A stretch of 25,002 bases of DNA, taken from Candidatus Altarchaeum sp. Its GTDB lineage: Archaea > Altiarchaeota > Altiarchaeia > Altiarchaeales > Altiarchaeaceae. The DNA lies in assembly GCA_018260755.1 (NCBI GenBank), contig JAGTWP010000008.1, positions 9,869-34,870 of the forward strand, written 5' to 3'. Position 1 is the first letter of the stretch; each line of letters starts with the position of its first letter. A program made the translations under genes and the position numbers. The notes beneath the pieces are model-generated. The model was not told where the DNA came from, did no database searches, and worked only from the letters and a program-made list of their open reading frames with translations. Shown one piece after another: positions 2,131 through 24,779 of the stretch.

Positions 2131-2160
2131 AATAAAAGATAAATTTAAAATTAACATAAA

Positions 2161-2286
2161 ATTAAAAGAATCAAAATTAAAAATTAAAAGAATCAAAATT
2201 AAAAGAATCAAAATTAAAAATTAAAAGAATCAAAATTAAAAGAATCAAAATTAAAAATTAAAAGAATCAAAATTAAAAGAAACAAA
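2161..2286. repeat. Higher-order tandem repeat abutting the HTH-CBS regulator start
   Basis: Seven copies of a 15-mer, ATTAAAAGAATCAAA, start at 2161, 2183, 2198, 2220, 2235, 2257 and 2272. Three copies of a 7-mer, ATTAAAA, lie at 2176, 2213 and 2250. Together they make three 37-bp units (2176-2212, 2213-2249, 2250-2286). Only the last 15-mer has a substitution (GAAAC for GAATC). The array ends one base before the ATG at 2288, so it fills the whole promoter/leader space. It could be an operator array for the DNA-binding protein that follows, or a slippage product. Confidence 0.9.
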
Positions 2287-2287
2287 A

Positions 2288-5534: not shown

Positions 5535-6035
5535 TTAATCACTCATCGCCACTGCTATTAAATACCCTCTCGCCCTTTCCGTCATAGAATACTTATACAC
5601 AAAATTCCAGAATTGTTCATTATGTGCAGGGACTTTCAGATGTGCCAGTTCATGAACCACAACGTAATCATGAACAAATTTAGGCATTTTTAAAAGACGG
5701 TCGGAAACCCTTATTATTTTATCTCTTGTATTACAATTTCCAAACATCTTTGAGTTTTGCTCTGTGCTGTATTCAATTTTATTCCATTTAAGTTCATTGT
5801 TAAAGTATTCTCTGTTCAGTTCTTTTGCCGTATTTTCAAGATTCTTATTTGCATCGCCTTCGATTAAATTTTTCTTTCTGTCGTCTGCCTCAAATCTCTT
5901 TTTTGCCCATTCAATATAATGTTCTATTTTTTCACTGCTCAAACTATTTGAAACATATAACAAAATTTCTCCGTTAACTCTTTTTGTAGTTATTGTCCTC
6001 CTTCTTTTTTCACTTTTTATGACCCTCACATCCAT
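5535..6035 (-). CDS. YgjP-like (DUF45/WLM-type) zinc metallopeptidase
   Basis: The 166-aa product carries the zinc site HELAHLKVPAHNEQFW near residue 135, i.e. HExxH plus a downstream His in the AHNEQFW motif. This is typical of YgjP/DUF45 metal-dependent hydrolases. The N-terminal half has the family pattern IKSEKRRRTITTKRVNGEILLYVSN and an amphipathic helix (IEHYIEWAKKRFE). Substrate is unknown. I start at ATG 6035 (MDVRVIKSEK). The frame stays open to 6116, but those 27 extra codons overlap the tRNA-Leu gene and do not resemble the family. The gene is 40 bases downstream of the tRNA on the same strand and may share its transcript. Confidence 0.82.
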   Translation of the reverse strand: MDVRVIKSEKRRRTITTKRVNGEILLYVSNSLSSEKIEHYIEWAKKRFEADDRKKNLIEGDANKNLENTAKELNREYFNNELKWNKIEYSTEQNSKMFGNCNTRDKIIRVSDRLLKMPKFVHDYVVVHELAHLKVPAHNEQFWNFVYKYSMTERARGYLIAVAMSD

Positions 6036-6075
6036 TATTGTATTCTGTAAAATTTTAGAATGTATTTTCTGTTTA

Positions 6076-6159
6076 TGCGGGGAATGGGATTTGAACCCAT
6101 GAAGGCTTACGCACACAAGGCCCTGAACCTTGCCCCTTTGGCCGCTTGGGAACCCCCGC
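6076..6159 (-). tRNA. tRNA-Leu (anticodon CAG)
   Basis: The reverse complement folds as a class II tRNA. The acceptor is GCGGGGG paired with TCCCCGC plus discriminator A at 6076. The D-arm is CCC/GGG around AAGCGGCCAAA, the anticodon stem CAAGG/CCTTG with loop TTCAGGG gives anticodon CAG, the long variable region is 15 nt (TGTGCGTAAGCCTTC), and the T-arm is ATGGG-TTCAAAT-CCCAT. No CCA is encoded and no intron is visible. Its 5' base lies directly after the stop codon of the HAD gene (TAA at 6162-6160), so the two must be transcribed together or the tRNA promoter lies inside the HAD gene. Confidence 0.93.
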
Positions 6160-8198: not shown

Positions 8199-9371
8199 TT
8201 ATGCCTTAAATTTATCCGCCATTTCATATATTTCTTTTAGCCGTCCGACATTTTCAACATTCATTATCAGGCATAAATTTAAATACATAACATATCCCTT
8301 TGTTAAAGATGCACCGAAATGATATTCTATTTTGCATATTTCTGCCAGTTTATTTCTTATTGCATTGTCTTGAAATTTCTTATTTGCAAGTTTGTCCGGA
8401 ACTACAAGATTACAAAAGCCCTTTTCAACATTTTTTAAATCATCAACTGTTACTGTTAAATGTGATACAGCGTCATCAAAATATTTTTTCATTCTGTCCG
8501 AGGAGGGAATATTTGCTCCTGCAAGTCCCCCTAACTTTAATTGGTCTAAAATATATCTTAATTTAGGTGCCACCATTATAGGTTCTGATGCTATTGCTGA
8601 AACATATCTTTTATTTCCTGTTTTAAACATGGTTGCTGTTAGTAAGTCCGCACTATCTACGGTCTTTCCTGCCCATGCAGAATATTTACCTGGATCTATT
8701 CTGTGTTTAAATATTCCTCCGATTTGATGGTAAAAAAAGTTTGCAACAAATTTATTATATTTGGTATAAGCTAAACTTATATTTTCTTCTTTGAATATTC
8801 TTTCATTATCAACCAATATAAAACTATCTGCAAAATTTGATATTTTTTCCATGGCATATTTCGCCGCATAAGATCTGCGTCCTCCTTCACTTTTACTTGG
8901 CATAACTCCTACGGTAATAACTTTTGTATTTGGATCCCTGTTTTTCAAATATTCTATTATCTGTGGAGAAACACCTGCCCCGGTTCCACTTCCAAGCCCA
9001 AGGAAAATATATGCATAATTTATTTTATCCTTTGGAAATATTGTATCCATACAATTTTTAAAATAATTTTTATTGTTACCTATTGCATCTTCGGCTTTTT
9101 CGGGATCATTTCCAAACCCACCACGTACTTCGTTTCTAAAAATAAAATTTTCTTTTTTTCCACCAAATAGCGGACCATTAGTAGATACCAGCTCTCCATC
9201 ACCTTTTATTCCAACCCACCTATCTTCTTTCACATTATGAAGTTGCATCAATTCCTGCGCTTCGCTATTTAACACAATAGGATATGCCAATTCAAACATT
9301 TCTTTATTTGCATATATTTCATCCACTATCTTTGTTCCGCAATGACCTACACCAACAATAATCTGTGACAT
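8199..9371 (-). CDS. Tubulin/FtsZ-superfamily GTPase 1 (divergent, T7 aspartates kept)
   Basis: This 390-aa protein shows the full set of nucleotide loops: T1 GVGHCGTK (7-14), T2 LNSEAQEL (34-41, like FtsZ NTDAQAL), T3 GGFGNDPEKA (84-93, like GAGANPE), T4 GLGSGTGAG (125-133, tubulin signature), T5 VMPSKSEGG (156-164) and T6 around VDNERIFKEEN (187-197). T7-like TVDSAD (237-242) compares with NVDFAD of FtsZ and keeps both aspartates, so GTP hydrolysis on assembly is plausible. It lacks the long disordered tail and conserved C-terminal peptide of FtsZ, so it is not the ordinary division protein. The end (YLNLCLIMNVENVGRLKEIY) resembles that of tubulin-like 2, suggesting paralogues. It is the last gene of the minus-strand set. 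Confidence 0.85.
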   Translation of the reverse strand: MSQIIVGVGHCGTKIVDEIYANKEMFELAYPIVLNSEAQELMQLHNVKEDRWVGIKGDGELVSTNGPLFGGKKENFIFRNEVRGGFGNDPEKAEDAIGNNKNYFKNCMDTIFPKDKINYAYIFLGLGSGTGAGVSPQIIEYLKNRDPNTKVITVGVMPSKSEGGRRSYAAKYAMEKISNFADSFILVDNERIFKEENISLAYTKYNKFVANFFYHQIGGIFKHRIDPGKYSAWAGKTVDSADLLTATMFKTGNKRYVSAIASEPIMVAPKLRYILDQLKLGGLAGANIPSSDRMKKYFDDAVSHLTVTVDDLKNVEKGFCNLVVPDKLANKKFQDNAIRNKLAEICKIEYHFGASLTKGYVMYLNLCLIMNVENVGRLKEIYEMADKFKA

Positions 9372-9390
9372 TTTAATAGTTAAATTTTTA

Positions 9391-10371
9391 TCAGAATATT
9401 TTTATTATTTCCGTACTTTTTTTATCTTTTCTGTATGATAAATGTGCCTTTACAAGTATTATGCCTATTATAACAAATACAATGGCACAAATTCCTACAA
9501 GTATCCGAAATGATGTGTTTAATTCGTTTTCTAATTTATATGCTTCGCCCCTATTATAAATTGCATCCTTATATTTATTATAATAAGCTTTGTAATTTTC
9601 GGAATTACTCAAACTTTGAATGTTGTGCCGTTCATAGATTGAAATTGCATTATTGTATGCCTCAATTGCTGTTTCCACGGTTGTTATTTGCCTGCTATTG
9701 GATGCTTCGTTATAATATTTTTTTCCGCCATCAACCGAATTTCTCGCTTTTTCTAGGTCTTCGTAAAAATTGCTTTTTGTTTCATAGACCTTTTTTAATT
9801 CTTCAGGAACATTACCTCCAATTGACACAGTTTCATCATAGCATTTCAATGTGTTTTCAAGATATTCTATTTTTATAGGTGTTATTTTTTCATTATCTGC
9901 TTTTTCTTTAAAAAAAGTTCCTGTATCTTCTAATATTTTCTTTAAGCCGGTTTTTGAAAGTTTGATTATTTCAATTATACTTTGTTTATCCTCGTCTGAA
10001 CGCAAGTTGTAATTGTATGTTTCATCCATTTGAGAAATTATGCTTTTTAAATTAGGTGCATTCTTTAGTACTTCCTCTCTTGAATTTATATTGTCAATTC
10101 TCTTTTTGTCCGAACTCACAAAATTTTCAAGAAATGCCTTAACTTCATAAGTAAATTTATTTACATTGGAATTGGTGCTGTATGTGTCCTTTCCGTACAA
10201 CCAAGATAAGCATGTTCTTTGTATTTGTCCCGGCTCAGAATATGATGAATCAGTATTAATATTTGAAATATCTTTGCGTAATTCTTCAACTGTTTTGTCT
10301 CCGTACACATTTACTATAAATACAAGTATAAATAGAAACAGCAACACGAAAAATATGTTTTTTATATTCAT
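9391..10371 (-). CDS. Single-pass membrane protein with helical ectodomain and short basic tail
   Basis: The 326-aa product has an N-terminal signal/anchor (about 5-24, FFVLLFLFILVFIVNVYG). An all-helical, probably TPR-like or coiled ectodomain follows at 25-288, with repeated pieces such as ENTLKCYDETVSIGG and TAIEAYNNAISIYERH. A membrane helix at 290-307 (ILVGICAIVFVIIGIILV) leads to a 19-residue tail, KAHLSYRKDKKSTEIIKIF. The topology is outside-in, so the tail should face the cytosol. It matches the C-terminal tail of the 772-aa protein at 22461-24779 (YxKDKxxxExxK), suggesting both bind the same cytosolic partner. Only one base separates its ATG from the previous stop (TAAGATG) and 19 bases follow to tubulin-like 1, so translation is probably coupled. 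Confidence 0.75.
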   Translation of the reverse strand: MNIKNIFFVLLFLFILVFIVNVYGDKTVEELRKDISNINTDSSYSEPGQIQRTCLSWLYGKDTYSTNSNVNKFTYEVKAFLENFVSSDKKRIDNINSREEVLKNAPNLKSIISQMDETYNYNLRSDEDKQSIIEIIKLSKTGLKKILEDTGTFFKEKADNEKITPIKIEYLENTLKCYDETVSIGGNVPEELKKVYETKSNFYEDLEKARNSVDGGKKYYNEASNSRQITTVETAIEAYNNAISIYERHNIQSLSNSENYKAYYNKYKDAIYNRGEAYKLENELNTSFRILVGICAIVFVIIGIILVKAHLSYRKDKKSTEIIKIF

Positions 10372-10372
10372 C

Positions 10373-10855
10373 TTAAAATAAAATGTTTATAATATATGTT
10401 CCAATTCCAATGATTATGCTTATTATAACAATTAAAATTATTCCTATTGCAATTATTATTCCCCCTATTTTTAATATCCACATAAAGTTAGGAACTTTAT
10501 AGATATGTTCATATTTTATTCTGTCAATCCATTTCTTTGTTAAAACCAATCCGAGAGCAATTCCCATAATCACACCTAATATTTTAAATAAAAACGAATC
10601 ATTTTTACAATTATTTATTGTATTGTTTAATGATTGCTCCGCTTTTTTATAATTTTCATCAACAGAGGTGGGATTTTCTATTTGTAAAAACTCGCTCATT
10701 GTTTTGTTGCACTCGTTTATTTCAACGGCATTATCGTCATTCTTGACAGTTATGTTAGTGTTATCACTATACACATTTCCAACTAAAAATAAAACAAAAA
10801 ATAGTACAATTGCAACACACCTTATGTTCCTTTTAAATTTATTAAAATTTTCCAT
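10373..10855 (-). CDS. Small membrane protein with short external loop
   Basis: The 160-aa product has a signal peptide or first membrane helix at 12-30 (CVAIVLFFVLFLVGNVYS) and a small external helical part at 31-87 with several Asn-X-Thr sites (NIT, NKT, NNT). A membrane helix follows at 89-106 (LFKILGVIMGIALGLVLT), then a basic cytosolic loop (KKWIDRIKYEHIYKVP) and a long very hydrophobic stretch at 125-158 rich in Ile and Gly. No family is recognised. It lies between the MopE-like protein (9-base gap) and the 326-aa protein (1-base gap), so it should be made with them and may be a small membrane subunit of the same complex. Confidence 0.7.
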   Translation of the reverse strand: MENFNKFKRNIRCVAIVLFFVLFLVGNVYSDNTNITVKNDDNAVEINECNKTMSEFLQIENPTSVDENYKKAEQSLNNTINNCKNDSFLFKILGVIMGIALGLVLTKKWIDRIKYEHIYKVPNFMWILKIGGIIIAIGIILIVIISIIIGIGTYIINILF

Positions 10856-10864
10856 TTTTGATGT

Positions 10865-12154
10865 TTAAAATTTGTTGTCTTTTTTATTTTCCTTTCTTTT
10901 TAATCCATATATAAAGTCCTCTTTCTCTTCTTCATGGGGCGCCCCCCCCAAACCACTTCTTTCTTCACTTTTATCTTCTTTTTTAATTCCCTTTGGTTCT
11001 TTTTCAACACATTTTTCTTCTTTTGGTTTATTGCAAAAATTAGATTCTTCCGTTTTAGGTGTGCCTTTAGACATTTCATCATATCTTTTTGTAATTTTTT
11101 CAGTTTGTACACTTTGTGACGATTGTTCATAACGATTGCCTTTATATGGCTCGTTATTGTATGTTTCGGATCCTTTTTGCATAATAAATTTTCGCTTAAC
11201 AACAAACCAAGATAAAACAAGGACAATTGCAAATATAACAAAAAGATAAAACAACAAAGAAATGATATTTATTAAAATTTTTGAATTTTCTATTTTTGTT
11301 GCTGTTAAACTCATTTCTTTAGTTTGCTCATATTTTGATATTGCTCCTTTCATATATTCGGTTGTAGTTATTGTAGCATTGTTGTCATCACAATCATTCC
11401 CTCTCTCCTTTTGATTTGGTGGGACGCAATTGAATGTTGAACAATTTCCACTTGGTATTATGCTTATAAAATTATCTTTATCCTTATCGCGGTAATATAA
11501 GAGAAGCGGGCAAACATTTCCTTCATCAGTTTTGTTGTTACAATTGTCATCAATTCCATTACATATTTCGGTAGCATTAGGATATATTGAAGAATTCTGG
11601 TCATTACAATCCCCTCCTGTTGTAACATTATGAGGATTTTGTGGTTGACATAAACATTTATAACTACTGCCATATCCATCGTTATCTTTATCTTCATAGT
11701 AATTTTTGCATCCTTTGGCCTTTTCTTCCCCATCTATCAAATTATTGCAATTATCGTCAATTCCATTACAAATTTCTATTGTTCCAGGAATATCTGAATT
11801 ACTATCATTGCAGTCATTTCCTCCTTTAATAGAACAATTTATTGTAGTGTTATCGCACAAAAGAATAACAGAATTATTCTCTTTCGTACAATTTGTTTCA
11901 TTTAAATTAAAGGGTTTGTTACTTATAAACCCATCCTTATCAGTATCACAGTAATATATCTCTGTAATTGATTGATTGGCAGAAGTATTTTGAGATATAT
12001 TATTAGAATTATATGCACTATTGTTGCTTGTGGCATTAACCGTTAAGTTATTTGTAGAATTATCAATATTTGTTGTGTTTGCTGCCTGAACATTTCCTGC
12101 AAAAGCAAAGACAAATAATATACATACAACCATTAAAAAGTTAAGTTTATCCAT
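10865..12154 (-). CDS. Single-pass membrane protein with MopE-like / Ca-binding-like repeats and long cytosolic tail
   Basis: The 429-aa product begins with a signal peptide (1-25) and an Asn/Thr/Ser-rich stretch (26-63) with many N-X-S/T sequons. Three repeat units follow. Each starts with a calcium-loop-like segment (YYCDTDKDGFIS 67-78, YYEDKDNDGYGS 152-163, YYRDKDKDNFIS 220-231) and continues with a MopE-type metal-binding motif (GNDCNDSNS and EICNGIDDNCNN at 112-138; GDCNDQNSS and EICNGIDDNCNN at 181-207; a truncated GNDCDDNN at 252-259). One membrane helix lies at 293-318, then a charged tail of about 110 residues (319-429) with no fold apparent, predicted cytosolic. The ectodomain may bind metal or make surface contacts; the tail could dock on the tubulin-like proteins. 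Confidence 0.8.
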   Translation of the reverse strand: MDKLNFLMVVCILFVFAFAGNVQAANTTNIDNSTNNLTVNATSNNSAYNSNNISQNTSANQSITEIYYCDTDKDGFISNKPFNLNETNCTKENNSVILLCDNTTINCSIKGGNDCNDSNSDIPGTIEICNGIDDNCNNLIDGEEKAKGCKNYYEDKDNDGYGSSYKCLCQPQNPHNVTTGGDCNDQNSSIYPNATEICNGIDDNCNNKTDEGNVCPLLLYYRDKDKDNFISIIPSGNCSTFNCVPPNQKERGNDCDDNNATITTTEYMKGAISKYEQTKEMSLTATKIENSKILINIISLLFYLFVIFAIVLVLSWFVVKRKFIMQKGSETYNNEPYKGNRYEQSSQSVQTEKITKRYDEMSKGTPKTEESNFCNKPKEEKCVEKEPKGIKKEDKSEERSGLGGAPHEEEKEDFIYGLKRKENKKDNKF

Positions 12155-12196
12155 TTTCTTTTTAAATAATAAAATATCTGAATTATTAAATTTTTG

Positions 12197-13426
12197 TTAT
12201 TCTTTTAAAAATTTATTTATATCGTCTTTTAAATTTTTATATATTTGTGCTAAATCCTCCAATGAAATTTTAATGTTTGAGGAATTACATTTATTCAAAA
12301 CATCGTTCATTTTTTCTTCATCTGCAATAAAATCTCCGAATTTTTCATTTAACTCATCAAGACGGGGAATATTTGAGAATGCGATAAATGAACATATCTT
12401 AAGTTTGTTTGAACTTGATTTTTCAATCTCTATTGTTACTTTAATAGGTTTATCATTTTTTTCCATATCTTTTTCTATTTTTTGTTCTAATTCTCTGCAT
12501 GTAATCTTTTCTTTATAATTGTCTGGCAATGTAACATCTATGTAAATTCCCATTGATTTTTCTAAATTGCAATCAGCCATTTTTCCTTCATCCAATGCAT
12601 CCACTATTAAAAACTCCAGTTTAATGGTCTCCCAAAAGTCCTTATTTTTTTCAACAAAGGATGGAACAATTATCGGTGTTTTTTTGAAGTTTCCGCATCG
12701 TTTGAAAAATTCGCGAAGATTTGAAATATTAACTTCTGTTAAGTTTGCAATCCATTTTCCATACATTTCATTAACTGTCTCTTTTTCAATATATTCATTG
12801 TCAACAATTATTATAGCATCACATAAGTTGTAGAACAGTGCAATATTGGTTATAGCATTCACTTCTGGTATTACGGAATGATCTTCGTTTTTATAAGGTA
12901 AAACAATTGTGGTCGTTAAAATCGAAGATTTTTTATTCATAGTGTTTCTTATTTTTTTACTAAAGAGATATCCGCAGCCAACTCCTGTCCCCCCTCCTCC
13001 GGCATTCACTATATTTATCCACAAATCATTTGTGTTTTTAGTTTTGTTTATGATTCCACTCTTTCCGTAAAATTTACTGTCCTCTTTTGATTTCTCCCAG
13101 GTCAGAAAATCCTCGGCAATTTTTCCGGATATAAGCCACGACCCTCTCACATACTCATAATTCTCACTTTCTATTTGTATTGGGTTTAAGTATGCTGCTG
13201 TTGGAAACATACTAGTTTTCTCATGACCAAATAACCTTTTTAAATTGAGACCCAGTCGTTTTGCCTCTTCATCTGTTTCCTGTGATCCTTCTATTTCCTG
13301 AATATCTCCAATAAAAAAACCAATATTTTCTAATGAATTATTTTCAGGCCTTCCTGCCTCTCTGTAAATACCTATTGTTAAATTTATTCCTGCCTGTCCC
13401 AGTCCGAAGATAAAAATTTTTGACAT
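12197..13426 (-). CDS. Tubulin/FtsZ-superfamily protein 2 (T7 degenerate)
   Basis: The 409-aa protein has T1 GLGQAGINLTIGIY (8-21), which keeps the Gln-Ala-Gly-x-N pattern of tubulin/FtsZ, T2 around FFIGDIQEI (37-45), T3 around GSWLISGKIAEDF (95-107), T4 NAGGGGTGVGCG (141-152) and T6 around VDNEYIEKET (208-217). I cannot find the NxDxxD/E loop of T7; the corresponding area (TPIIVPSFVEKNKDF) lacks the first Asp. It therefore probably binds GTP but may not trigger hydrolysis in a neighbour. The C-terminal part (LKICSFIAFSNIPRLDELNEKF) resembles that of tubulin-like 1. Its ATG follows the stop of the 240-aa gene directly (TAAATG), indicating tight coupling. Confidence 0.82.
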   Translation of the reverse strand: MSKIFIFGLGQAGINLTIGIYREAGRPENNSLENIGFFIGDIQEIEGSQETDEEAKRLGLNLKRLFGHEKTSMFPTAAYLNPIQIESENYEYVRGSWLISGKIAEDFLTWEKSKEDSKFYGKSGIINKTKNTNDLWINIVNAGGGGTGVGCGYLFSKKIRNTMNKKSSILTTTIVLPYKNEDHSVIPEVNAITNIALFYNLCDAIIIVDNEYIEKETVNEMYGKWIANLTEVNISNLREFFKRCGNFKKTPIIVPSFVEKNKDFWETIKLEFLIVDALDEGKMADCNLEKSMGIYIDVTLPDNYKEKITCRELEQKIEKDMEKNDKPIKVTIEIEKSSSNKLKICSFIAFSNIPRLDELNEKFGDFIADEEKMNDVLNKCNSSNIKISLEDLAQIYKNLKDDINKFLKE

Positions 13427-14149
13427 TTAAAATTTCTTTAGAGTTAATCTGTTATATATTATGTTTGCAATCTCTTTTTTCATTTCTTTTCCGATATTGC
13501 TTCCTCTTAATTCCTCTGCATTTTCAAAACTGTCACTTAATCTGTTGTACACATCATAAAAATCAGTTATATTTTTTGAGTGTCTTTCAAACATTGGCTC
13601 TATTATTTTTTCTATTTTGTCTTTTGATAAAAATTTTTCCGCATAAGTTTTAAGGCCAATTAAGTATTGTTCATCATTTACGCTTTCAATAAAGTTTTTC
13701 CATTTTATCCGTAAATCAACAAACTCATTTTCGCCGGGAACTATGCTAATGCATTCCTCTCTGTATTTATTTAATTGTTTCATCCTTTCCTCATTCTCGA
13801 TTATTTTTTTACTTTTGCCACCTGCTTCCATCTTTTGCCAGATAATCCAAAATACATCTGCATCCTGCTTATTTTCAAACATTTCATAAAAATCTTCTTT
13901 ACTTATGTCTTTGTGTACCTTTTTGTATCGCTCTATCATCCTTAATGAGTCATCCTTAATATTCAATAATCGTTTCATATTTTCAGTCGCTTTTTCAATT
14001 TCACTGATGCGAATGTTATCATTCAATTTAAATTCATCCGTCTTTATAGTCTCTCCGCACAATCTCATCTCAAGTCCCCGTAATTCATCAATCTTTTCCT
14101 GTCTGGTATTTTTATCTTCCTGCTTTTTATTAAAAATGTTGAAGCCCAT
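13427..14149 (-). CDS. Soluble helical protein coupled to tubulin-like 2
   Basis: The product is about 240 aa, and I do not recognise it. It has no signal peptide or membrane helix and is strongly charged and helical. The N-terminus is MGFNIFNKKQEDKN, then helices such as IRISEIEKATENMKRLL, a Trp/Phe-bearing segment (QDADVFWIIWQKMEAGGKSKK) and a C-terminal region with IEPMFERHSKNITDFYDVYN. It is predicted cytosolic. I choose ATG 14149; a TTG two codons earlier (14155) is possible. The stop touches the start codon of tubulin-like 2 with no spacer, so the two proteins are probably made in fixed ratio and may interact, for example as a filament regulator or adaptor. That role is inference from position only. 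Confidence 0.7.
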   Translation of the reverse strand: MGFNIFNKKQEDKNTRQEKIDELRGLEMRLCGETIKTDEFKLNDNIRISEIEKATENMKRLLNIKDDSLRMIERYKKVHKDISKEDFYEMFENKQDADVFWIIWQKMEAGGKSKKIIENEERMKQLNKYREECISIVPGENEFVDLRIKWKNFIESVNDEQYLIGLKTYAEKFLSKDKIEKIIEPMFERHSKNITDFYDVYNRLSDSFENAEELRGSNIGKEMKKEIANIIYNRLTLKKF

Positions 14150-14322
14150 ATTCAAATTTCATTTATAGGTGTTTTTGAAAACAAATGAAATTTTGTGTTT
14201 TGAAAATTTAAGGTCAAATAAATTAAATTAGCATATTTCTGATGTTGTGAGATTGCTATGAAATTTCAGAGTTTTTGTTGTCATCACAGAGAGGAAAATA
14301 AGAGACTTAAAATTTAATGCGA
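14150..14322 (-). promoter_or_regulatory. Gap that splits the minus-strand set, possible internal promoter
   Basis: This roughly 170-base AT-rich gap is the largest inside the minus-strand gene set, whose other gaps are 0-45 bases. It includes a minus-strand TTTAATTTATTTGACC stretch that could hold a TATA-like element for the 240-aa gene and tubulin-like 2. No hairpin plus T-run is clear. Confidence 0.3.
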
Positions 14323-16902: not shown

Positions 16903-18670
16903 TTCTTTTTATCTTCAAAAATTTATCCTCTAATTGTTCAATTCTCCATACCTTTTTTTCATCTTTTTTATACCAGTCATTATAAATTTCCTCTTTAAAT
17001 TCTTCTATTTCATTTCTTTTTTCTGATGTTGCGTTTTTCAATAATTCGTTGACATCTCTAATTAATCGTGAGGCCTTTTCTATCTTGTCTCTGTAAGTGT
17101 AAATTTCATTATTTTGTTTTTCTATTTCTTTTTTTAATTCAAAAGGAACATCAAAGCCATTTTTTTCCCATTCTTTTATTTCCTCTTTAATGGGATTTTC
17201 TTTTTGTTTACCATAAAAAAGCCAAAGAACTAATATAATAATAGCTATAGCAAGAAAGATAAGTAAAAACCACGGAAATGGCGGCGGGTGAATTATCCCA
17301 TAACATTCGTCTGCTTTATCTTTTGCTTTTTTGTATTGTGAATAACCAAACAATTCCTTTGAAACATTAATACATTCTTCTGCATCATCTACATCATGTC
17401 CTTCCTTTCTTTTTTGTTCTATTTCATTCTCAACATCAGAAATTCTACTTTCCGCTTCTTTTCTCAAATTTGATATTTTATTCTCGCACATATTGTCTGT
17501 ATTTTTTGCCTCTTCAATCGCAAGTTTATAATTTTCGTTCTCCAAATAGTTATCAGTTTTTTTAACATTTTCTTCAATATCTCCAACATCCATTCCAATT
17601 TTGTTTGCCGTTTTAATACAGATATTTATTTTTTGCTTAATCTTTTGTACATAGTTTTTTATATATTCATCCGAATCAAAAAAGTAAACTCCTTTACTGC
17701 CGTCTGTTGCCGGAGATACAATAACATATCTGCCGTTTTTTGAAATTTCCGTTGATGCCAAATCAACACCGAATTGCTTATAATAAATTTCAGCGCCTTT
17801 TACAGTAGTTCCTTCGCTGAAAATATAAATATAATGAAATGTTTGTGCTTCGCATACGCTTCCAAATCCATCTTCATTTATAGAAATATCTTCTATTGCC
17901 CCTCCTCCACTTTCTAAAATCTTTATTTCCTTCCCTTTTTCAGCCCCATTATCAAAAACATAAATCTTTCCATCTCTGCATCCGCAAACAATATACTTTC
18001 CGTTTTCTGTAATCTTTACGGTGTCAATATTTTCGGATAAAGTTTTATTCCATACTATATTTCCTTCCTTTAATATAAAAACATTTTCATAAGAAGTTAC
18101 TGCCACTTCTCCGTTATTTGAAACCGAGACCCCCTTCCAGACAATTTTTTTTGCACTTGACGGAATTATATACCTCCAAATTTTATTTCCGGTTTCATCA
18201 TAAAGTTCAACATTTCCGTTAGATGTCCCTACCACATAAAACTTTCCGTTTTTAGACATAGATACCGCCCACAATGACTCATTTTTAGAACCGGATACAC
18301 ACCATTCCTGTTTTTTATCAATCATATTTATCAGGCATACCTTTGTTGTAGCAGCAACAATTGTAGAAATTTTATTGTCTTTATTTCCAACATACGAATC
18401 AAGAATTTTATTGGACCCTTCAAGTGAAAATTTATAGGATCCTTTTAGATTGCCATTTAAATCTATCAGATAAATATTTCCATCCCCAGAAGTAGCAATT
18501 ATGTTTTGAGCATCTTCATCCGTTCCAATCGCCCACGCAATATTTGATATGTCTGTAAAACTCCACAATGGCTCTGCACTTTCAGATAAGTAATTCTCCT
18601 GTGCATACGAATAACTACACAATACAAAAATCAAAAACAGTCCAAAAACAAATTTAAATTTAATATCCAT
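16892..18670 (-). CDS. Single-pass membrane protein with WD40/PQQ-like propeller and cytosolic coiled coil
   Basis: The 592-aa product has a signal peptide (1-23). Residues about 30-335 form a beta-propeller with repeated blades (GDGNIYLIDLNGNLKGSY, SNGNVELYDETGNKIWRY, RDGKIYVFDNGAEKGKEI), of the PQQ/WD40-like type found in cell-surface proteins. A helical, coiled stalk runs from 340 to 458 (IEENVKKTDNYLENENYKLA, VENEIEQKRKEGHDVDDA). The membrane helix is 466-486 after PPPFPW. A cytosolic coiled coil fills 487-592. It is the first gene of the minus-strand set, reading away from the divergent promoter gap. A 43-base stretch (17923-17965) is identical but for one base to 16389-16431 of the next gene, evidence of exchange between the two propellers. 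Confidence 0.8.
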   Translation of the reverse strand: MDIKFKFVFGLFLIFVLCSYSYAQENYLSESAEPLWSFTDISNIAWAIGTDEDAQNIIATSGDGNIYLIDLNGNLKGSYKFSLEGSNKILDSYVGNKDNKISTIVAATTKVCLINMIDKKQEWCVSGSKNESLWAVSMSKNGKFYVVGTSNGNVELYDETGNKIWRYIIPSSAKKIVWKGVSVSNNGEVAVTSYENVFILKEGNIVWNKTLSENIDTVKITENGKYIVCGCRDGKIYVFDNGAEKGKEIKILESGGGAIEDISINEDGFGSVCEAQTFHYIYIFSEGTTVKGAEIYYKQFGVDLASTEISKNGRYVIVSPATDGSKGVYFFDSDEYIKNYVQKIKQKINICIKTANKIGMDVGDIEENVKKTDNYLENENYKLAIEEAKNTDNMCENKISNLRKEAESRISDVENEIEQKRKEGHDVDDAEECINVSKELFGYSQYKKAKDKADECYGIIHPPPFPWFLLIFLAIAIIILVLWLFYGKQKENPIKEEIKEWEKNGFDVPFELKKEIEKQNNEIYTYRDKIEKASRLIRDVNELLKNATSEKRNEIEEFKEEIYNDWYKKDEKKVWRIEQLEDKFLKIKRNVR

Positions 18671-18793
18671 TCTAATTTATAATAAATTTATTAAAAGTAT
18701 AATTATTTTAAAGGGTTATTAAATTTATTTCTAAAAGTTAAATTATTAGTTAAATAAATAATTATTAATCAAATAAAATTTAATATAATTAAA
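18671..18793. promoter_or_regulatory. Divergent promoter region of the tubulin-like locus
   Basis: These 123 bases are extremely AT-rich and lie between the first genes of the two divergent sets, so both promoters should lie here. Several TATA-like stretches exist (for example TTAAATAAATAATTATT), but base composition makes picking one unreliable. Neither start codon has a Shine-Dalgarno. A shared control region would let all eleven genes be induced together. Confidence 0.5.
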
Positions 18794-19375
18794 ATGGCAA
18801 AAAGTAATATAGGAGTAGGAATACTCGGGTTTGGAGTTTTAGCCGCAGGGATATGGTTAATTGCAAAACTTACTGGTTTTTTGGATAAAAAAGAATATTT
18901 AATATATGATACTCTTTGGAGTATACTATCAGTTATTCTTATTATTGTCGGAATAGTAATGGCATATCAGGCACTAAAAAGTTGGGGAAAAGAAGAAATT
19001 CCTATCGAATTTTGGAATGGCGTGTATAAAATGGGTTTCTCATTAATTATATTCGGGGCTATTTTGCTCGGAATAGGACTTGTATTATATTTGTTGGTTT
19101 TTACAAAGGTTATGGAAGGGGATGCCTCACTAATGAAATTGTTAAATGCCGGAGCTATAGTCGGACTGGTTTTTATTGGTGTTGGAGGCCTGATAGCGTA
19201 TGTTGGAAATATGAAAAAAATACAATGCCTTGATAAAAACATAGGAATAAAGGAAAAAGAAGGAGAGGCAAACAAAATTAAAGATGCGGTAAAAAGAAGT
19301 AGTGAAACTGCCTCGCGTGGGAGTGAGAAACTTGGAGGAATAAGAGGCGAGAAACCTCCAGGAGAGAAATTTTAA
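18794..19375 (+). CDS. Four-helix membrane protein with charged cytosolic tail
   Basis: The 193-aa product has membrane helices at about 6-24, 41-60, 80-102 and 116-137. A tail at 139-193 is rich in Lys, Glu, Gly and Ser (KEKEGEANKIKDAVKRSSET, EKLGGIRGEKPPGEKF). An even number of helices and the positive tail fit both ends in the cytosol. No family is recognised. It opens the plus-strand set and is 34 bases ahead of the giant tubulin-like gene, so the two are probably cotranscribed. A membrane anchor for tubulin-like 3 is a reasonable guess, with the tail as contact. Confidence 0.75.
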   Translation: MAKSNIGVGILGFGVLAAGIWLIAKLTGFLDKKEYLIYDTLWSILSVILIIVGIVMAYQALKSWGKEEIPIEFWNGVYKMGFSLIIFGAILLGIGLVLYLLVFTKVMEGDASLMKLLNAGAIVGLVFIGVGGLIAYVGNMKKIQCLDKNIGIKEKEGEANKIKDAVKRSSETASRGSEKLGGIRGEKPPGEKF

Positions 19376-19409
19376 AATTTTTAAGTACAAACTAACTATA
19401 CAATTAAAA

Positions 19410-22367
19410 ATGGATCCAACAACTAAAGCAGTATCTGTTGATACTAATAAAATAGTTATATGTTTGGGGGGCGCTGCAACAGAAATTGGAAACGAGATAT
19501 TTAACTTAATGCAAAAAGAAGGCGAAATTAAAAAAGAAAAGAAGGAAAATATTGAATCAATAGAAGGATGGATAAATGCAGCAAATGAAAAGATAAAAAA
19601 TGTAGAAAAATATGACGAAGGAAGGAAGAAAATAGAAGAAATAATAGACACTTTACGAAAGATCATAGAAAAATTTAAAAGGCCGGATGTTGATTATTTT
19701 GATGTAAAAGATGAGGTGGATAAACAAATAATTGAACTAGGTGATTTAGGAATAACACCAAAGCAAACAGTCACAGAAGGATATTCAAAAACAGATATCA
19801 AAGCGGAAGAAAGGGAATTATTAAAAAAAGGAGTAAGCGTCATTGCTGTGGATACAAACCCTCCGCCATCAAATATAAATCCGAGCATATTTCACATAGA
19901 ACTTACACCCCCTGCCAGAGCAATATGTCAGCAGGAATTCGGAGCATGCCTAAATAATGAATATTGGCCAAGTGAGAGCGGGGCAGGAATGCGAAGAATT
20001 GCCGGAAAAGAATATTTTGTTGTTAATAAGGGTCTTATATTAGAGTCCATCAGAAAAAGGGCAACACGACTTGTTGAAGAAACCGGCAGAAGGAATTTTT
20101 TTATTACAATAGTAACTGCCGCCGGCGGAGGAACAGGGTCAGGAATGTTTCCGGATATGGCAATGGCAATAAGAAAAGAGTTTCCCGAACAATTTAAAGC
20201 AGATAGTTTAATGATGGTAGGGATTGCTACCTTGCCCCTTCCGCACGAAGCACAACAATTAGCAAACTCTTATGGATTATTGCAGGAATTGCACTTTCTT
20301 TTATCATCTGACGAACTTATTTTTAATGCTTTATTTATAGCAGATAGAAAAGAAATGGGTGACAGTCCTGAAGCACTGGAAAGATTTACACCAACAATAG
20401 CAGATTTTATCAGACATATGAATTTTGTTCCGCAGGAAACAGTAAAGGCATCAGGAAAAAAAGGCGCATTTGACATTGCTGATTTTGCTACTTACACAAC
20501 AGGGGTACACAATTTTTCAACATTTTCATATTCCCGTGTTATATTTCCCTATAAAAAACTTAAATGGTTTTATGCTCTGTCAGATGTGTTGAAAGAACAA
20601 AAACAAAAATACGATGATGCATTAGATGAATACGAAAAAGCGAATTACGATTTAAAAAATTTGAAAGAGGAAATTGAAAAAAAAGAAGTCGTAATAGGAC
20701 AAATCGAAGAAAAATTACGACAAACAGAAAAAGATATCTTTGCTAAACTACATTCATCAAAAATAAAGACAATAAAAGATAATATAGAAAGTGAAAGAAG
20801 TAGTAAAAAAAAGATAGAAGAAGCAATTAATACATTAGAAACAAGAACAATTCCTGATTGTAAGCAAAAATTAGATGAATTACAAAAAGATGTTGAAAAA
20901 ACAGAAATAGATAAAGAAAAGACATTGCAGGAACTAAATACCGGTTTTACAACACTAAGAAGCAGAACAATTGAATTAAGTAACAGCGAGATTGATAAGT
21001 TAAAAGGAAGAATTGAAAATAGTTGCTTCATAGAGATTATGCGACTTCTCAATAGAGAAAACGAATATCTTGACCTTACGCATAAACCAATATCAAATGC
21101 AAACGCTTTGTTTAATCCATTACTGGACTATGTTCATTCAAATGAAGCTGCGTCAGGAGGCAATTTAAGCGGAGAAGAACTTAGAGAAATCAAAAACTAT
21201 GGCTTATTATCAGAAGATAAATATAAGCATCCGATAGTTGAGACCACAAAATGTAATTTCTATCTTGCACTTGTTTCAAGTGATCCCAGAAATATAATAA
21301 GTGAAAAACTGCAAATAGAGGATTTGAAAACAAAGGCAATGGAGTTTGTTGCATCTAAAGCAGAGGTTAAACTTCTTACGGCACCGAGTCCTTATGAATT
21401 TATAATTTATGGATTATTATTTGGAATTTCGTTTGCACCTATTGCCCCGAAAAAGCCGTCCAGATTAAGAAGTATGGCAAATTATGAAGATATGTACTTT
21501 AGAACTCCAACGGATTCAAGAATTCAACACCATTCTTTATTTTTCATAACCTATAACGATTATGAAGGATTGACCGGAAAAATTGCTGATTCAACAAACC
21601 TAAAGGGAACGAATCAAGAGATACTTGAATTTTGGAAAAATTATCAGATGTTGGGCCCGGAAGAAAAATGGTATCAGCTTCCGTCAACTCTTGCAATGGT
21701 TAGAGTTCAGATTAAGAGCATAACAACAACTTTAGGCGATTTAGAGATAAAAACAAATGACTTTAAACAATTAACCGAAGGAACAAAAATAGAAAAAGAA
21801 AAACTTCCGGAAGTTGTGATAAAACTTGAACGCATACAAAAGATGCTTGATGAGACATTAAAGAGAATCAACAGCACAAGTAGCAAGTTCTTAGAAAATA
21901 TAGAAATGGTAGAAATACTATCGAAGCAACTGGAAGCATCACGAATGCCATCACTTAATCCAACGACTCTTGAAAATATGCGAAAGATGGCAAGAGAAAC
22001 AAGTATGAAAGAGATAAAAGAAGTGACTGAAAAAATATACGAAACACTTGGTTCAAAAGCATTGGCATTTGCAATAAGCGACATGGAAAATTCTATTGAT
22101 GCCCTAGAAGAAAAGGACTCGCTTGTTATAAGAAAAAAAGACGAAGCACAAAAATGTGTTGAAAGAATTAAAATTTTATATGATAAATTAAAATATGGAA
22201 TTGATCAATTACGACTTCACATTAGTGAGATGGAAGGAAGGATAGAAGAAATAAAGGGTGTTGTGGAGGAAGCATCAAAAGGACAAATTACTGAAGGAAA
22301 AAGAGATTCTCAATCACAACCCACAAGTGTAAAATCGGACGGGAAGGGAAGTACAGATTATATGTAG
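19410..22367 (+). CDS. Giant tubulin-like GTPase 3 with coiled-coil insertions (Tubulin_2-like)
   Basis: The 985-aa product is about two and a half times FtsZ size. T1 is VICLGGAATEIGNEI (16-30). A helical insertion of about 100 residues (35-135) separates it from T2 VIAVDTNPPPSN (144-155). T3 is SGAGMRRIAGKEY (190-202), T4 TAAGGGTGSGMFPDM (236-250), T5 ATLPLPHEAQQ (273-283), T6 follows FIADRKEM (309-316), and FDIADFATY (354-362) sits where T7 should be, like VDFADV. A long coiled coil follows (about 385-530), then a folded part (about 545-740) and a second coiled coil (about 755-955) with a disordered end. Large tubulin-like proteins of this kind (Pfam Tubulin_2; Makarova and Koonin's FtsZ-like families, from memory) are poorly studied and proposed to act in membrane remodelling. 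Confidence 0.85.
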   Translation: MDPTTKAVSVDTNKIVICLGGAATEIGNEIFNLMQKEGEIKKEKKENIESIEGWINAANEKIKNVEKYDEGRKKIEEIIDTLRKIIEKFKRPDVDYFDVKDEVDKQIIELGDLGITPKQTVTEGYSKTDIKAEERELLKKGVSVIAVDTNPPPSNINPSIFHIELTPPARAICQQEFGACLNNEYWPSESGAGMRRIAGKEYFVVNKGLILESIRKRATRLVEETGRRNFFITIVTAAGGGTGSGMFPDMAMAIRKEFPEQFKADSLMMVGIATLPLPHEAQQLANSYGLLQELHFLLSSDELIFNALFIADRKEMGDSPEALERFTPTIADFIRHMNFVPQETVKASGKKGAFDIADFATYTTGVHNFSTFSYSRVIFPYKKLKWFYALSDVLKEQKQKYDDALDEYEKANYDLKNLKEEIEKKEVVIGQIEEKLRQTEKDIFAKLHSSKIKTIKDNIESERSSKKKIEEAINTLETRTIPDCKQKLDELQKDVEKTEIDKEKTLQELNTGFTTLRSRTIELSNSEIDKLKGRIENSCFIEIMRLLNRENEYLDLTHKPISNANALFNPLLDYVHSNEAASGGNLSGEELREIKNYGLLSEDKYKHPIVETTKCNFYLALVSSDPRNIISEKLQIEDLKTKAMEFVASKAEVKLLTAPSPYEFIIYGLLFGISFAPIAPKKPSRLRSMANYEDMYFRTPTDSRIQHHSLFFITYNDYEGLTGKIADSTNLKGTNQEILEFWKNYQMLGPEEKWYQLPSTLAMVRVQIKSITTTLGDLEIKTNDFKQLTEGTKIEKEKLPEVVIKLERIQKMLDETLKRINSTSSKFLENIEMVEILSKQLEASRMPSLNPTTLENMRKMARETSMKEIKEVTEKIYETLGSKALAFAISDMENSIDALEEKDSLVIRKKDEAQKCVERIKILYDKLKYGIDQLRLHISEMEGRIEEIKGVVEEASKGQITEGKRDSQSQPTSVKSDGKGSTDYM

Positions 22368-22460
22368 ATTGTAGAATTATTTTTGTGCATTTCAAAGTAG
22401 AAATTTATTATTTTTCATTTTCTTTTTTAATTTTATCTGTAAAATTTTAAAATTTAAAAG

Positions 22461-24779
22461 ATGTTTTCAATAGCAAATAGATATAATGTAGAAATGTTTA
22501 AATTTTCATTGGTCTTTGTAATCTTACTATTCCTGCTTTTTCCCGCATCTTTTGCAGATGCGACAATTCAAAGAAGTCCTGCTGAAAATCAGTATGTTTC
22601 TAATGAGGATTTTGTAAAATTCTTTATAAATACAGACACTCTTACAAAAGTTAGAGTAATATGTAATGGTGAATCATTTTCTGATAATTATTTATTGGCA
22701 TCTTCGCATACGATAAATACAAAACAATTTTCTTCCGGTAGTGAAGTGGATTGCAAAGCAGAAATAATGAATAATGTAAGTGTAATAATTGAGGACTATG
22801 ATTCTTCTGATGAATCAATCCTTAAATTTCATGTATATTCAAAACAACCGGTTCTTACTATGACTGATAATACCATTGAAGGGAGTTTTACAGCGGAATT
22901 TGATAAGCCAAAGGGCTCACAGGGAACTTATGCACTCGGAGAAAAATCCTTTACTATAAAAAATAACGGATTAACACCGATACAAACTGTAAAAATAACA
23001 AAAAGCGGGGACTTAATCTCATGGACAACAGTTTCACAAACAGATATTTCTTCAATTCCGGCCTTGACAAAAAGCAGCGAGATTACTGTTAAAATAGAAA
23101 TTCCCGAAACAGCGCAGGAAAAAACATATCAAGGTTACATAAAGATAACATCCGGAAATGCAGGAGAAAAAACAATAAGTTTTAGTGTTAGAGTGATTTA
23201 TCCTGTTGAAGTAGAAATAACCTCAATTAAGTCAGATATAGAAGATATGTTAAAAGCAGGGAATAGTTATGAAAGTAAACTCAATATAAAAGAAACAATG
23301 GGCTATAAAGGTACCGGAAAAATTTCCGTGCGCAGCAGCGGATTTCCAAACTGGATGAATGTAGGAGGAATTAATGACATTTCTAACATTAATGCCGGAG
23401 GAGAAACAACACTAACAATAACAGTTACTGTTCCGGAAAGGAATATCGTACCTGGAAAATATTATGGCGGCGTAACTCTCAGCAATGACTATATAAGGGA
23501 TAGAGATAGTAGTAGTTACAAATTTAATTTTGAAATTCCTTTTCCCAAAATGAGTGTTGACAAGACAATATTTACTTATACCATTGACCCCGGAAATACC
23601 GCAGGGGAAAAATTTAGAATTTCTGAGACGGAAGGATATACTCCTATAGAAGGATTAGGAATTTCATTAACTAACTGTAAAAGAACAACAAAACACGGGA
23701 AAGAAGAATCGTTTGACGGATTAAAAAACTGGATACAGTTCAGCGGAATTAGTAGTTATATAAAGCGAGGAAATTCAAATGAAGTTTCTATCAGTATAAA
23801 TACTAATAAGGAATACGGAACAGGAGAATATACCTGTGATGGTAAAATAACCACAAATTATGCAGGTGAGAAAACCCTCAATGTAAAATTTATTTTGGCT
23901 GATGTCTCCCTAACAGAAACTATAAAAAACTTGAATAAGAAGTTAGAAAATGCTAATAATTATGAAAAAAATATAATATCTCCAACGATAACTTTACTGG
24001 AAAAAATACGAACGGATATAAGCAGCAGTGATTTTATCTCTTCTTATGTTCTTTCATTTTTAATCTCTGCAAATCAAATCAATGTTAAAGATTACAATGA
24101 AGCATACAAAGAAGTAGAAAATATGGTTTCACAAGAAAATTCAATAAGCGGTTTAAAAAGCAATAGTAAATATAAGAAGTATAGAACTGAAATAACAGAT
24201 ATTGAAAAAAATGTAGATGTATATTTTAAGGGGACAGTCGGCAGTCTTTCAAATCATTTTAAATATGAAGGAGACAAAACAAAAGACAACAATATGTTAT
24301 TATCCGTAGAACAATATAATAAGGCGTTAGAGTTGTGCGGGAAAATTAGTTGCGGAAATAAAGAAGAGATAAGCAATACAATCAGTGAATTAAATAACAA
24401 AATTAACTCATATAATATTTCAATAGAACAAAATAAGGCAAAAATAAATACATTAAATGATGAAATTTCAAAATTGTTATTTATTGACCTTTTTGGAAAA
24501 ATTAAAAAATATGACGAGGTAATAAATTGTTATGCGGATATTATAAATAAAAGAGAAAAGATCGGAGGTGATAATAAAGATGCAGAGGTAAGCTTCTTTA
24601 AAACCGAAAAAAGCAAAATTGAAGAAGAAAAAACAAGGGAAGTTACTATGTCTGCTGCAGGTTTGTTAATTACTTTAATATCTATATTGTTATTATCATG
24701 GGCGTTTGTGTCCGGAAATAGGACATACAAGAAAGACAAAGAAAATGTGGAACTCGTAAAATTTTTGTTTTCAAAGTAA
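22461..24779 (+). CDS. Single-pass surface protein: Ig-like domains, helical stalk, short basic tail
   Basis: The product is 772 aa. A signal peptide precedes ASFADA (about 33). Residues about 35-480 are beta-rich, with Ig-like or NEW3/CARDB-like modules recognised by YALGEKSFTIKNNGLTPIQT, SEITVKIEIPETAQEKTYQG, the parallel ETTLTITVTVPERNIVPGKY, and EVSISINTNKEYGTGEY. Residues about 485-727 are helical/coiled (TIKNLNKKLENANNYEK, ISELNNKINSYNISIEQN). A membrane helix at about 732-750 leads to a cytosolic tail, NRTYKKDKENVELVKFLFSK, very like that of the 326-aa protein. ATG 22494 (MFKFSLVFV) would give a more normal short signal-peptide n-region and is a good alternative start. It is the last gene of the plus set, ending before a hairpin terminator. 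Confidence 0.78.
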   Translation: MFSIANRYNVEMFKFSLVFVILLFLLFPASFADATIQRSPAENQYVSNEDFVKFFINTDTLTKVRVICNGESFSDNYLLASSHTINTKQFSSGSEVDCKAEIMNNVSVIIEDYDSSDESILKFHVYSKQPVLTMTDNTIEGSFTAEFDKPKGSQGTYALGEKSFTIKNNGLTPIQTVKITKSGDLISWTTVSQTDISSIPALTKSSEITVKIEIPETAQEKTYQGYIKITSGNAGEKTISFSVRVIYPVEVEITSIKSDIEDMLKAGNSYESKLNIKETMGYKGTGKISVRSSGFPNWMNVGGINDISNINAGGETTLTITVTVPERNIVPGKYYGGVTLSNDYIRDRDSSSYKFNFEIPFPKMSVDKTIFTYTIDPGNTAGEKFRISETEGYTPIEGLGISLTNCKRTTKHGKEESFDGLKNWIQFSGISSYIKRGNSNEVSISINTNKEYGTGEYTCDGKITTNYAGEKTLNVKFILADVSLTETIKNLNKKLENANNYEKNIISPTITLLEKIRTDISSSDFISSYVLSFLISANQINVKDYNEAYKEVENMVSQENSISGLKSNSKYKKYRTEITDIEKNVDVYFKGTVGSLSNHFKYEGDKTKDNNMLLSVEQYNKALELCGKISCGNKEEISNTISELNNKINSYNISIEQNKAKINTLNDEISKLLFIDLFGKIKKYDEVINCYADIINKREKIGGDNKDAEVSFFKTEKSKIEEEKTREVTMSAAGLLITLISILLLSWAFVSGNRTYKKDKENVELVKFLFSK

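Follow-up and report, generated by a model that had tools for sequence, protein, structure and literature searches.

An archaeal gene set pairing two divergent tubulins with related surface proteins: an eleven-gene locus of Candidatus Altarchaeum and its relatives

Results

A wide core of two tubulins and paired surface proteins

A stretch of 25,002 nucleotides from Candidatus Altarchaeum sp. (contig JAGTWP010000008.1, positions 9,869 to 34,870; assembly GCA_018260755.1), referred to as the window, contains at exactly 8199-24779 eleven intact open reading frames (ORFs) that encode three GTPases of the tubulin/FtsZ superfamily, seven membrane proteins and one soluble helical protein. Our comparisons indicate that this locus is built around a wide core, present in three archaeal groups (altiarchaea, haloarchaea and a second phylum, here phylum X) and comprising the tubulin TubA, a second tubulin of TubB/TubD type, the membrane proteins memB and IgE and, at the level of the domain, a propeller protein; Tub2, the MopE-motif protein, memC, tetraTM, helD and the FG-GAP/CBS protein are lineage-specific additions. 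All gene names are provisional. On balance we favor the view that the core proteins form a membrane-docked tubulin polymer or heteropolymer, tied by the memB and IgE tails to surface ectodomains and serving adhesion, envelope organization or cell shape. The core proteins and Tub2, the third GTPase, are as follows (TM, transmembrane segment; aa, amino acids).

8199..9371, minus strand: TubA, tubulin-superfamily GTPase of 390 aa with T1, T4 and T7 (DxxD) intact, core component (PF00091, 4.8e-20)
9391..10371, minus strand: memB, 326 aa, signal peptide, helical stalk, TM 290-308 and an 18-aa cytoplasmic tail, core component (phylum X profile, 3e-20)
12197..13426, minus strand: TubB, tubulin-superfamily GTPase of 409 aa with T1 and T4 intact and T7 NxxN, second core tubulin (PF00091, 2.9e-8)
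16892..18670, minus strand: WD40/PQQ-type propeller protein, 592 aa (Pfam propeller models)
19410..22367, plus strand: Tub2, 985 aa, Tubulin_2 GTPase domain (T7 DxxD), long coiled coil and C-terminal domain (PF13809, 3.6e-14)
22461..24779, plus strand: IgE, 772 aa, core component (phylum X F684 profile, 1.1e-35)

Motifs and closest relatives of the three GTPases

All three GTPases scored above the curated Pfam cut-offs, TubA with 73.1 and TubB with 34.7 bits for PF00091 (cut-off 33, which TubB only just exceeds) and Tub2 with 53.2 for PF13809 (cut-off 27). Each carries a T4 motif (GLGSGTGAG, GGGGTGVG and GGGTGSG). Alignment revealed that the T7 DxxD is kept in TubA and Tub2 and is replaced by NxxN in TubB of both the window and HURL_140, a genome of the same genus. 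This loss of the T7 acids is limited to these two proteins, as evidenced by the retention of DxxD in every TubA and TubD, in haloarchaeal TubB and in the TubB of two altiarchaea, Altiarchaeales A3 and genome G025. In tubulin-superfamily filaments the T7 acids act on GTP bound to the adjacent subunit, and DxxD is functional only across a subunit-subunit contact. With both acids lost from this TubB, any filament in which it takes part would include one interface that binds GTP without triggering its hydrolysis, an arrangement that would parallel the asymmetry of alpha/beta-tubulin.

A profile comparison with the PDB identified CetZ as the closest solved structure for all three proteins: TubA was matched to CetZ1 of H. 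volcanii (4b46; 84.8 bits, with an alignment spanning nearly the full length of TubA), and TubB and Tub2 to the Methanosaeta protein 3zid (1.3e-7 for Tub2). In the AlphaFold2 (AF2) model of TubA, the GTPase domain reached a predicted local distance difference test score (pLDDT) of about 80-90 and matched CetZ/FtsZ, with CetZ 3zid as the best Foldseek match (1.2e-13). TubB profile matches were to the TubA family (2e-10), the TubD family (2e-9) and haloarchaeal TubB (3e-7). Against the FtsZ equivalog model TIGR00065 (cut-off 295.2 bits), TubA scored only 58.5 and neither TubB nor Tub2 gave a match, whereas the canonical FtsZ proteins of the same genome pass. Tub2 consists of a Tubulin_2 domain, a coiled coil that matches SMC-type models and a C-terminal domain judged helical from its sequence alone; no tubulin C-terminal domain was recognized in the locus proteins by the Pfam scan.

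A mixture-model tree was built from 48 sequences, in which CetZ was represented by three sequences only. TubA formed a single clade outside FtsZ and the sampled CetZ, with support of 100/99 and 99/99 in two trees; it is possibly a weak sister of CetZ (58/70, with those three sequences). The possibility that TubA is a plain FtsZ or CetZ was rejected on this placement and on the missed TIGR00065 cut-off. TubD also formed one clade (100/99), as did FtsZ and CetZ. TubB, haloarchaeal TubB and TubD fell on the same side of a branch (95/92, and 74/91 after long-branch removal), which leads us to regard the recurring pair as one TubA plus one tubulin of TubB/TubD type. For TubA and TubB/D as one clade, the approximately unbiased test gave p-AU 0.28, a value that neither rejects nor establishes such a grouping. 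The position of Tub2 was unstable: it was placed beside the sequence L050_Tub2 (85/34) when that was present, and near FtsZ without it.

A shared cytoplasmic tail in memB and IgE

IgE consists of a signal, Ig/NEW3-like repeats, a helical stalk, TM 732-750 and a cytoplasmic tail of about 22 aa. The memB profile also found IgE proteins, aligning with their C-terminal half (best match, 2.6e-11); by this homology memB corresponds to IgE minus its Ig part, the stalk, TM and tail being shared by both. Directly after the TM, both tails possess a short aromatic-x-x-D motif followed by a small hydrophobic patch, as seen in phylum X (SWERDTYDCYLGNELVGA and RWVRDSEALAEGDVVLGAES), in haloarchaea (ATWAEDVDGSKVGRIV and RTYAYVQDAEAATTGEFL) and, in canonical form, in a second-set IgE from the same genus as the window (QYKRDEEEKMLGDVVYG). 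The two tails of the window locus are altered together (SYRKDKKSTEIIKIF, TYKKDKENVELVKFLF): the memB and IgE tails score 39.0 against each other, but 16.8 and 15.1 against their respective orthologues in phylum X. The DNA encoding them differs at many positions, and their likeness cannot be put down to recent gene conversion. Most simply, the two tails would share one cytoplasmic binding partner, which has changed as well, and the diverged TubA and TubB of the window locus are the obvious candidates. Since the tails are short, we regard this covariation as suggestive rather than as proof.

The core in phylum X and in haloarchaea

Contig JALUUU010000156.1 belongs to phylum X, in which TubD occurs in 15 of 23 genomes, including the one from which this contig derives. 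In the other 14 TubD loci, whose neighborhoods were inspected, the order TubA, F455, TubD is fixed in 13 (one of these contigs ends inside TubA, and in another TubD was placed by a separate search), and in the remaining one the contig begins immediately ahead of TubD. F455 has an N-terminal double TM and a coiled coil. A divergent signal/TM pair, F316 then F684, was present in 10 of these loci, and a large Ig/propeller/TM protein, F844, in seven. Profiles of these families identified F316 as memB (3e-20) and F684 as IgE (1.1e-35) of the window. The F844 profile matched the window propeller protein (1.8e-12) in the propeller region only, and orthology between the two was rejected for this reason.

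Searches by tblastn with TubA and with TubD returned an identical set of five haloarchaeal plasmids. Four haloarchaeal operons were inspected. Those of Halobaculum roseum, H. salinarum and Natrinema each contain a TubB-like protein, TubA and TubD in series, along with membrane proteins; in the H. halobium operon the annotation splits TubA into two pieces. The operons of Halobaculum roseum and of H. salinarum R1 plasmid pHS2 continue with homologues of memB (6.6e-17 and 1.2e-10) and IgE (5.3e-39 and 2e-40). On pHS2 the proteins are TubA WP_231851042, the TubD-type tubulin WP_049892678 and the IgE homologue WP_012289791. A search of the plasmids with Tub2 gave no match. Among 394 archaeal genomes, TubA was found in 19 and IgE in 17, with both in 16 (three and one alone, respectively); TubA and TubD likewise share 16. 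The Fisher value is 1e-24 without correction for relatedness. Although this value ignores kinship, the same pattern of co-occurrence is seen in separate groups and in a further family, G073, where TubA and IgE lie 2 kilobases apart.

Viral scans gave no match for TubB and, for Tub2, a single CetZ-like viral gene on two contigs, which is not the system: it encodes a 361-aa protein with GGGTGSG on predicted viral contig IMGVR_UViG_3300031521_000056 (L082 9836-10921; same gene on L083). Two further observations concern the haloarchaeal plasmids. An operon with a CDC48-type AAA ATPase lies convergent to the tubulin operon (L207 446-7591, L206 4078-9382), and in H. salinarum it ends in a 911-aa PQQ propeller/CARDB protein. 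On the Natrinema plasmid (L087 5881-7704), a protein with a bacterial PH domain and a zinc ribbon is located between the TubB-like gene and TubA, unlike in its relatives.

Conservation in altiarchaea and a second, dispersed set

The host of the window is an altiarchaeon of the genus Altarchaeum, to which HURL_140, CG2_30_32_3053 and Altiarchaeales A3 also belong. In HURL_140, 10 of the 11 genes are present in the same order, inverted and at another genomic site with different flanking genes; the FG-GAP/CBS gene is missing, and unrelated genes in convergent orientation flank the set at either end. Identities are 68-84% (84% for Tub2), with 43% for the MopE-motif protein, and the ratios of non-synonymous to synonymous substitution (dN/dS, 0.12-0.43) indicate purifying selection. 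Genome G025 carries three tubulin-superfamily genes on one contig, a TubB-like and a TubA-like gene in divergent orientation with a Tub2-like gene (shorter, 385 aa) downstream and signal/TM proteins between them, and in Altiarchaeales A3 a TubB-like gene lies behind that of a propeller-TM protein. Overall, a TubA-type protein was found in six of 29 genomes of the altiarchaeal phylum.

Five further PF00091 matches are present elsewhere in the window genome: three canonical FtsZ domains, TubA2 and TubD. The latter two belong to a second set that is dispersed over three contigs, with TubA2 on C78 (L058 136-1266), TubD on C45 (L057 4647-5978) and the second-set IgE (IgE2) on C47 (L199 6445-8421). 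IgE2 is also present in HURL_140 and CG2_30_32_3053.

Two unusual proteins were observed alongside. A fused FtsZ-FtsZ protein of 816 aa with two full FtsZ domains (contig C70, L059 2835-5285, minus strand) adjoins a single FtsZ (1661-2716, minus strand), and long open frames of 833-847 aa suggest the same fusion in other Altarchaeum genomes. The TubA of WOR_SM1_SCG (L048 663-2816) has a lysine-rich C-terminal extension of roughly 330 aa with internal repeats.

Layout and accessory genes of the locus

The minus-strand set comprises eight genes from 8199 to 18670, transcribed in the order WD40 propeller protein, FG-GAP/CBS, helD, TubB, MopE-motif, memC, memB, TubA; the plus-strand set comprises three, from 18794 to 24779, in the order tetraTM, Tub2, IgE. 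Spacing within both sets is -11 to +42 base pairs (bp), with two exceptions of 167 and 93 bp. A convergent TsaD gene marks the left boundary of the locus, and the contig end, 223 bp beyond IgE, marks the right. IgE is also the last gene of the HURL_140 sister locus, where a convergent unrelated gene follows, and the gene set of the window therefore looks complete. Hydropathy-based calls placed TM segments in seven of the 11 proteins, six of these with a signal-like N-terminus, and none in helD. The accessory features are listed below.

10373..10855, minus strand: memC, 160 aa, three TM segments, the first possibly a signal (68% identity to HURL_140)
10865..12154, minus strand: MopE-motif protein, 429 aa (PF11617, 3e-19; 43% identity to HURL_140)
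13427..14155, minus strand: helD, soluble helical protein of 242 aa, immediately upstream of TubB (69% identity to HURL_140)
14323..16902, minus strand: FG-GAP/CBS protein, 859 aa, propeller, four TM and two cytoplasmic CBS domains (PF13517, 3.9e-11; PF00571, 1.9e-11)
18671..18793, no strand: AT-rich intergenic gap of 123 bp separating the divergent gene sets (sequence), presumed divergent promoter
18794..19375, plus strand: tetraTM, 193 aa, four TM segments (TM scan; 79% identity to HURL_140)

The MopE-motif protein has a signal, two Cu-binding_MopE-type (DxDxDG-like) motifs, TM 297-315 and a long charged cytoplasmic tail. In the core propeller protein, a signal and the propeller are followed by TM 467-485 and a helical cytoplasmic domain of about 107 aa. 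A homologue search with memC found nothing convincing beyond HURL_140, and a profile search with helD no significant homologue outside it. Proteins encoded at the helD position in other loci were considered as homologues and rejected: MAFFT gave 21% identity to the A3 protein, but the profile search was empty and the hhalign probability against G025 was 0.1.

Discussion

A putative link between tubulin filaments and surface proteins

In the mechanism that we favor, TubA and another tubulin of different sequence, which is TubB in this locus and TubD elsewhere, would bind GTP and polymerize, or copolymerize, beneath the membrane. Docking sites for the polymer would be the short tails that two related single-pass proteins extend into the cytoplasm: memB, with its bare stalk, and IgE, with the same stalk and an Ig-like ectodomain. 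The propeller protein would accompany them. Filaments inside the cell would in this manner be physically coupled to Ig and propeller ectodomains outside, most likely in order to gather surface proteins into clusters, position them or put them under mechanical load. Where TubB lacks the T7 acids, one interface out of the two in a mixed filament would bind GTP with no hydrolysis being triggered. Homologies, gene order, co-occurrence, the topology pattern, the shared tail and the T7 loss are all read from sequence; polymerization, mixed filaments, tail docking and ectodomain function are what we infer from them, and the exact cellular job is the weakest link of the proposal. More tentatively, the system may represent a third archaeal tubulin machine besides FtsZ rings and CetZ, with two tubulins in mixed asymmetric filaments clamped to a tail motif shared by paired surface proteins, so that an inner cytoskeleton is joined to the cell exterior in the manner of eukaryotic adhesion complexes; we think this possible but hold it with less confidence.

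Several observations weigh against the proposed mechanism. The C-terminal half of the TubA model has a pLDDT below 50 and is unreliable, and the TubB model, built from two sequences, reached a pLDDT of 36 and is unusable. The propeller protein belongs to the wide core at the level of its domain only. In addition, the second Altarchaeum set lies on separate contigs; co-location is thus not obligatory.

The sequence-only reading had recognized three T4 signatures in two divergent, tightly packed sets of eleven genes that encode seven membrane proteins and one soluble helical protein, and in these respects the motifs, Pfam scores, ORFs, strands, spacing and TM scan agree with it. Its interpretation finds support in part. 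The idea of a dedicated unit of tubulins and membrane proteins holds for a core that is mostly co-located in three archaeal groups, and has to be narrowed by the six lineage-specific genes, of which FG-GAP/CBS is lacking in HURL_140. Neighboring GTPase and membrane genes were found, as it had expected of relatives, in HURL_140, phylum X and haloarchaea, and not in the dispersed Altarchaeum set; co-occurrence held for TubA with IgE and with TubD, and for the propeller at the domain level only. The tubulin fold that it anticipated was predicted for the GTPase domain of TubA, and the phylogeny that it suggested placed TubA in a clade of its own. As for its suggestion that inner tails recruit the filaments, the homologous stalk, TM and tail of memB and IgE and their covarying motif lend it genuine support, with tail binding itself as the predicted step.

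Alternative explanations

Altiarchaea are reported to possess a double membrane, and this, together with the many membrane proteins of the locus, would suit a machine for membrane remodelling or for the formation of vesicles or tubes, in which polymers bend the membrane and ectodomain proteins select the site. Such a role was proposed for FtsZl1 (Makarova and Koonin, 2010; PMC2875224), whose operon is also membrane-linked and whose architecture, a Tubulin_2 domain (PF13809) with a coiled coil and a C-terminal domain, is shared by Tub2 alone. However, the partners of FtsZl1 described by these authors (vWA protein, small GTPase, OmpA family, kinases) are all missing from the eleven locus proteins, TubA and TubB are PF00091 proteins rather than Tubulin_2, and the T6-H7 region is not identifiable in FtsZl1 (PMC2875224), whereas Tub2 aligns through T7 with DxxD. 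The kinship to FtsZl1/FtsZl2 considered in the sequence-only reading holds for the Tubulin_2 domain of Tub2 and not as the closest kinship of TubA or TubB. Moreover, the most widely conserved components are TubA, TubD, memB and IgE, not Tub2, and the system also occurs in haloarchaea. We accordingly rate remodelling as unlikely, though it deserves serious consideration.

Two FtsZ proteins serve distinct roles in archaea, and GTPases of the tubulin superfamily might serve an accessory apparatus for division or constriction alongside FtsZ. With three canonical FtsZ domains in the same genome, division is presumably covered; the system is also confined to a minority of the sampled archaeal genomes (19 of 394 with TubA) and is patchy and plasmid-borne in haloarchaea. 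The best reading is of a machine separate from the FtsZ division ring, and an accessory division role seems improbable to us. There is also only a slim chance that the GTPases act as a signaling switch, reporting the state of the ectodomains as monomers or short oligomers with no filament network. The combination of ectodomain and short tail, the CBS domains of the accessory FG-GAP protein and the lost T7 acids of TubB would fit a switch; TubA, TubD and Tub2, however, keep the DxxD that works only between subunits, and no kinase, response regulator or DNA-binding output was detected among the locus proteins in the Pfam scan. Altiarchaea further carry surface appendages, the hami, and with surface proteins in the locus an assembly platform for such an appendage might be envisaged. 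No recognizable pilin or secretion ATPase gene is found in the locus, and the core is present in haloarchaea and phylum X while missing from most altiarchaeal genomes, all of which makes this explanation very hard to credit. A place among anti-phage defence systems was rejected, since a scan of 10 of the 11 locus proteins with PADLOC-DB models gave a single weak match, confined to the propeller region.

Comparison with described systems

Among solved structures, CetZ (CetZ1 4b46 and CetZ2 4b45 of H. volcanii; Methanosaeta 3zid) comes closest to all three window GTPases, yet the TubA clade lies outside the sampled CetZ. The reported CetZ gene neighborhoods, with cofactor genes, sugar epimerases and type IV pili, share nothing with the eleven-gene locus, and proteins of the present type were listed as non-canonical (Brown and Duggin, 2023; PMC9856176). 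Canonical FtsZ1/FtsZ2 have the superfamily and the T1/T4/T7 elements in common with TubA, which falls far below the FtsZ equivalog cut-off. Alpha/beta-tubulin and the Asgard AtubA/AtubB are comparable only in how they work, as two tubulins acting together, one with a non-activating T7 loop; they match the window GTPases more weakly than CetZ does, and nothing here points to microtubules.

In the accessible parts of their study, Santana-Molina et al. (2023; PMC9871819) described altiarchaeal CetZ-like proteins and a multi-copy haloarchaeal group (Halo.Tub), arranged quasi-tandem beside coiled-coil proteins, and left these gene contexts as unknown and unrelated; the same parts report no conserved set, second tubulin family, memB, IgE or propeller proteins, or shared tail. 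Halo.Tub, matched by description rather than by published accessions, is very likely the TubA component plus part of the haloarchaeal operon reported here. The H. salinarum 'cetZ5' (VNG6260G), for which growth-phase expression was given in the CdrS paper (PMC7439475), may be the plasmid TubA. In the searchable literature, with subscription papers outside its reach, neither the gene set nor the second family of tubulins nor their surface partners were found to be described, in line with what the sequence-only reading had supposed. Although their superfamily is known, the proteins fall within none of the systems described for it, and no published gene set corresponds to this one; what is new is the relation of memB to IgE, the shared tail motif with its concerted change and the T7 loss of TubB.

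Archaeal tubulin relatives outside FtsZ and CetZ have so far been listed as unexplained strays; here they sort into two families that occur together, across three archaeal groups, with a constant set of surface proteins, and the tail shared by memB and IgE supplies a candidate docking motif. If the proposed mechanism is true, it would amount to a prokaryotic link from cytoskeleton to cell surface, with a two-tubulin asymmetry that arose independently of alpha/beta-tubulin. Halobacterium salinarum R1 is in culture and carries the core on a plasmid, so that a prediction that originated from metagenome-assembled genomes of uncultured archaea is directly testable.

Other features of the window

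Outside the eleven-gene set, a 340-aa coiled-coil protein with no Pfam match is encoded at 4391-5413 on the minus strand. A tRNA-Leu (CAG) occupies 6076-6159, overlapping the start predicted for a YgjP-like metallopeptidase ORF (5535-6116, minus strand), and the true start of this ORF is therefore probably further downstream.

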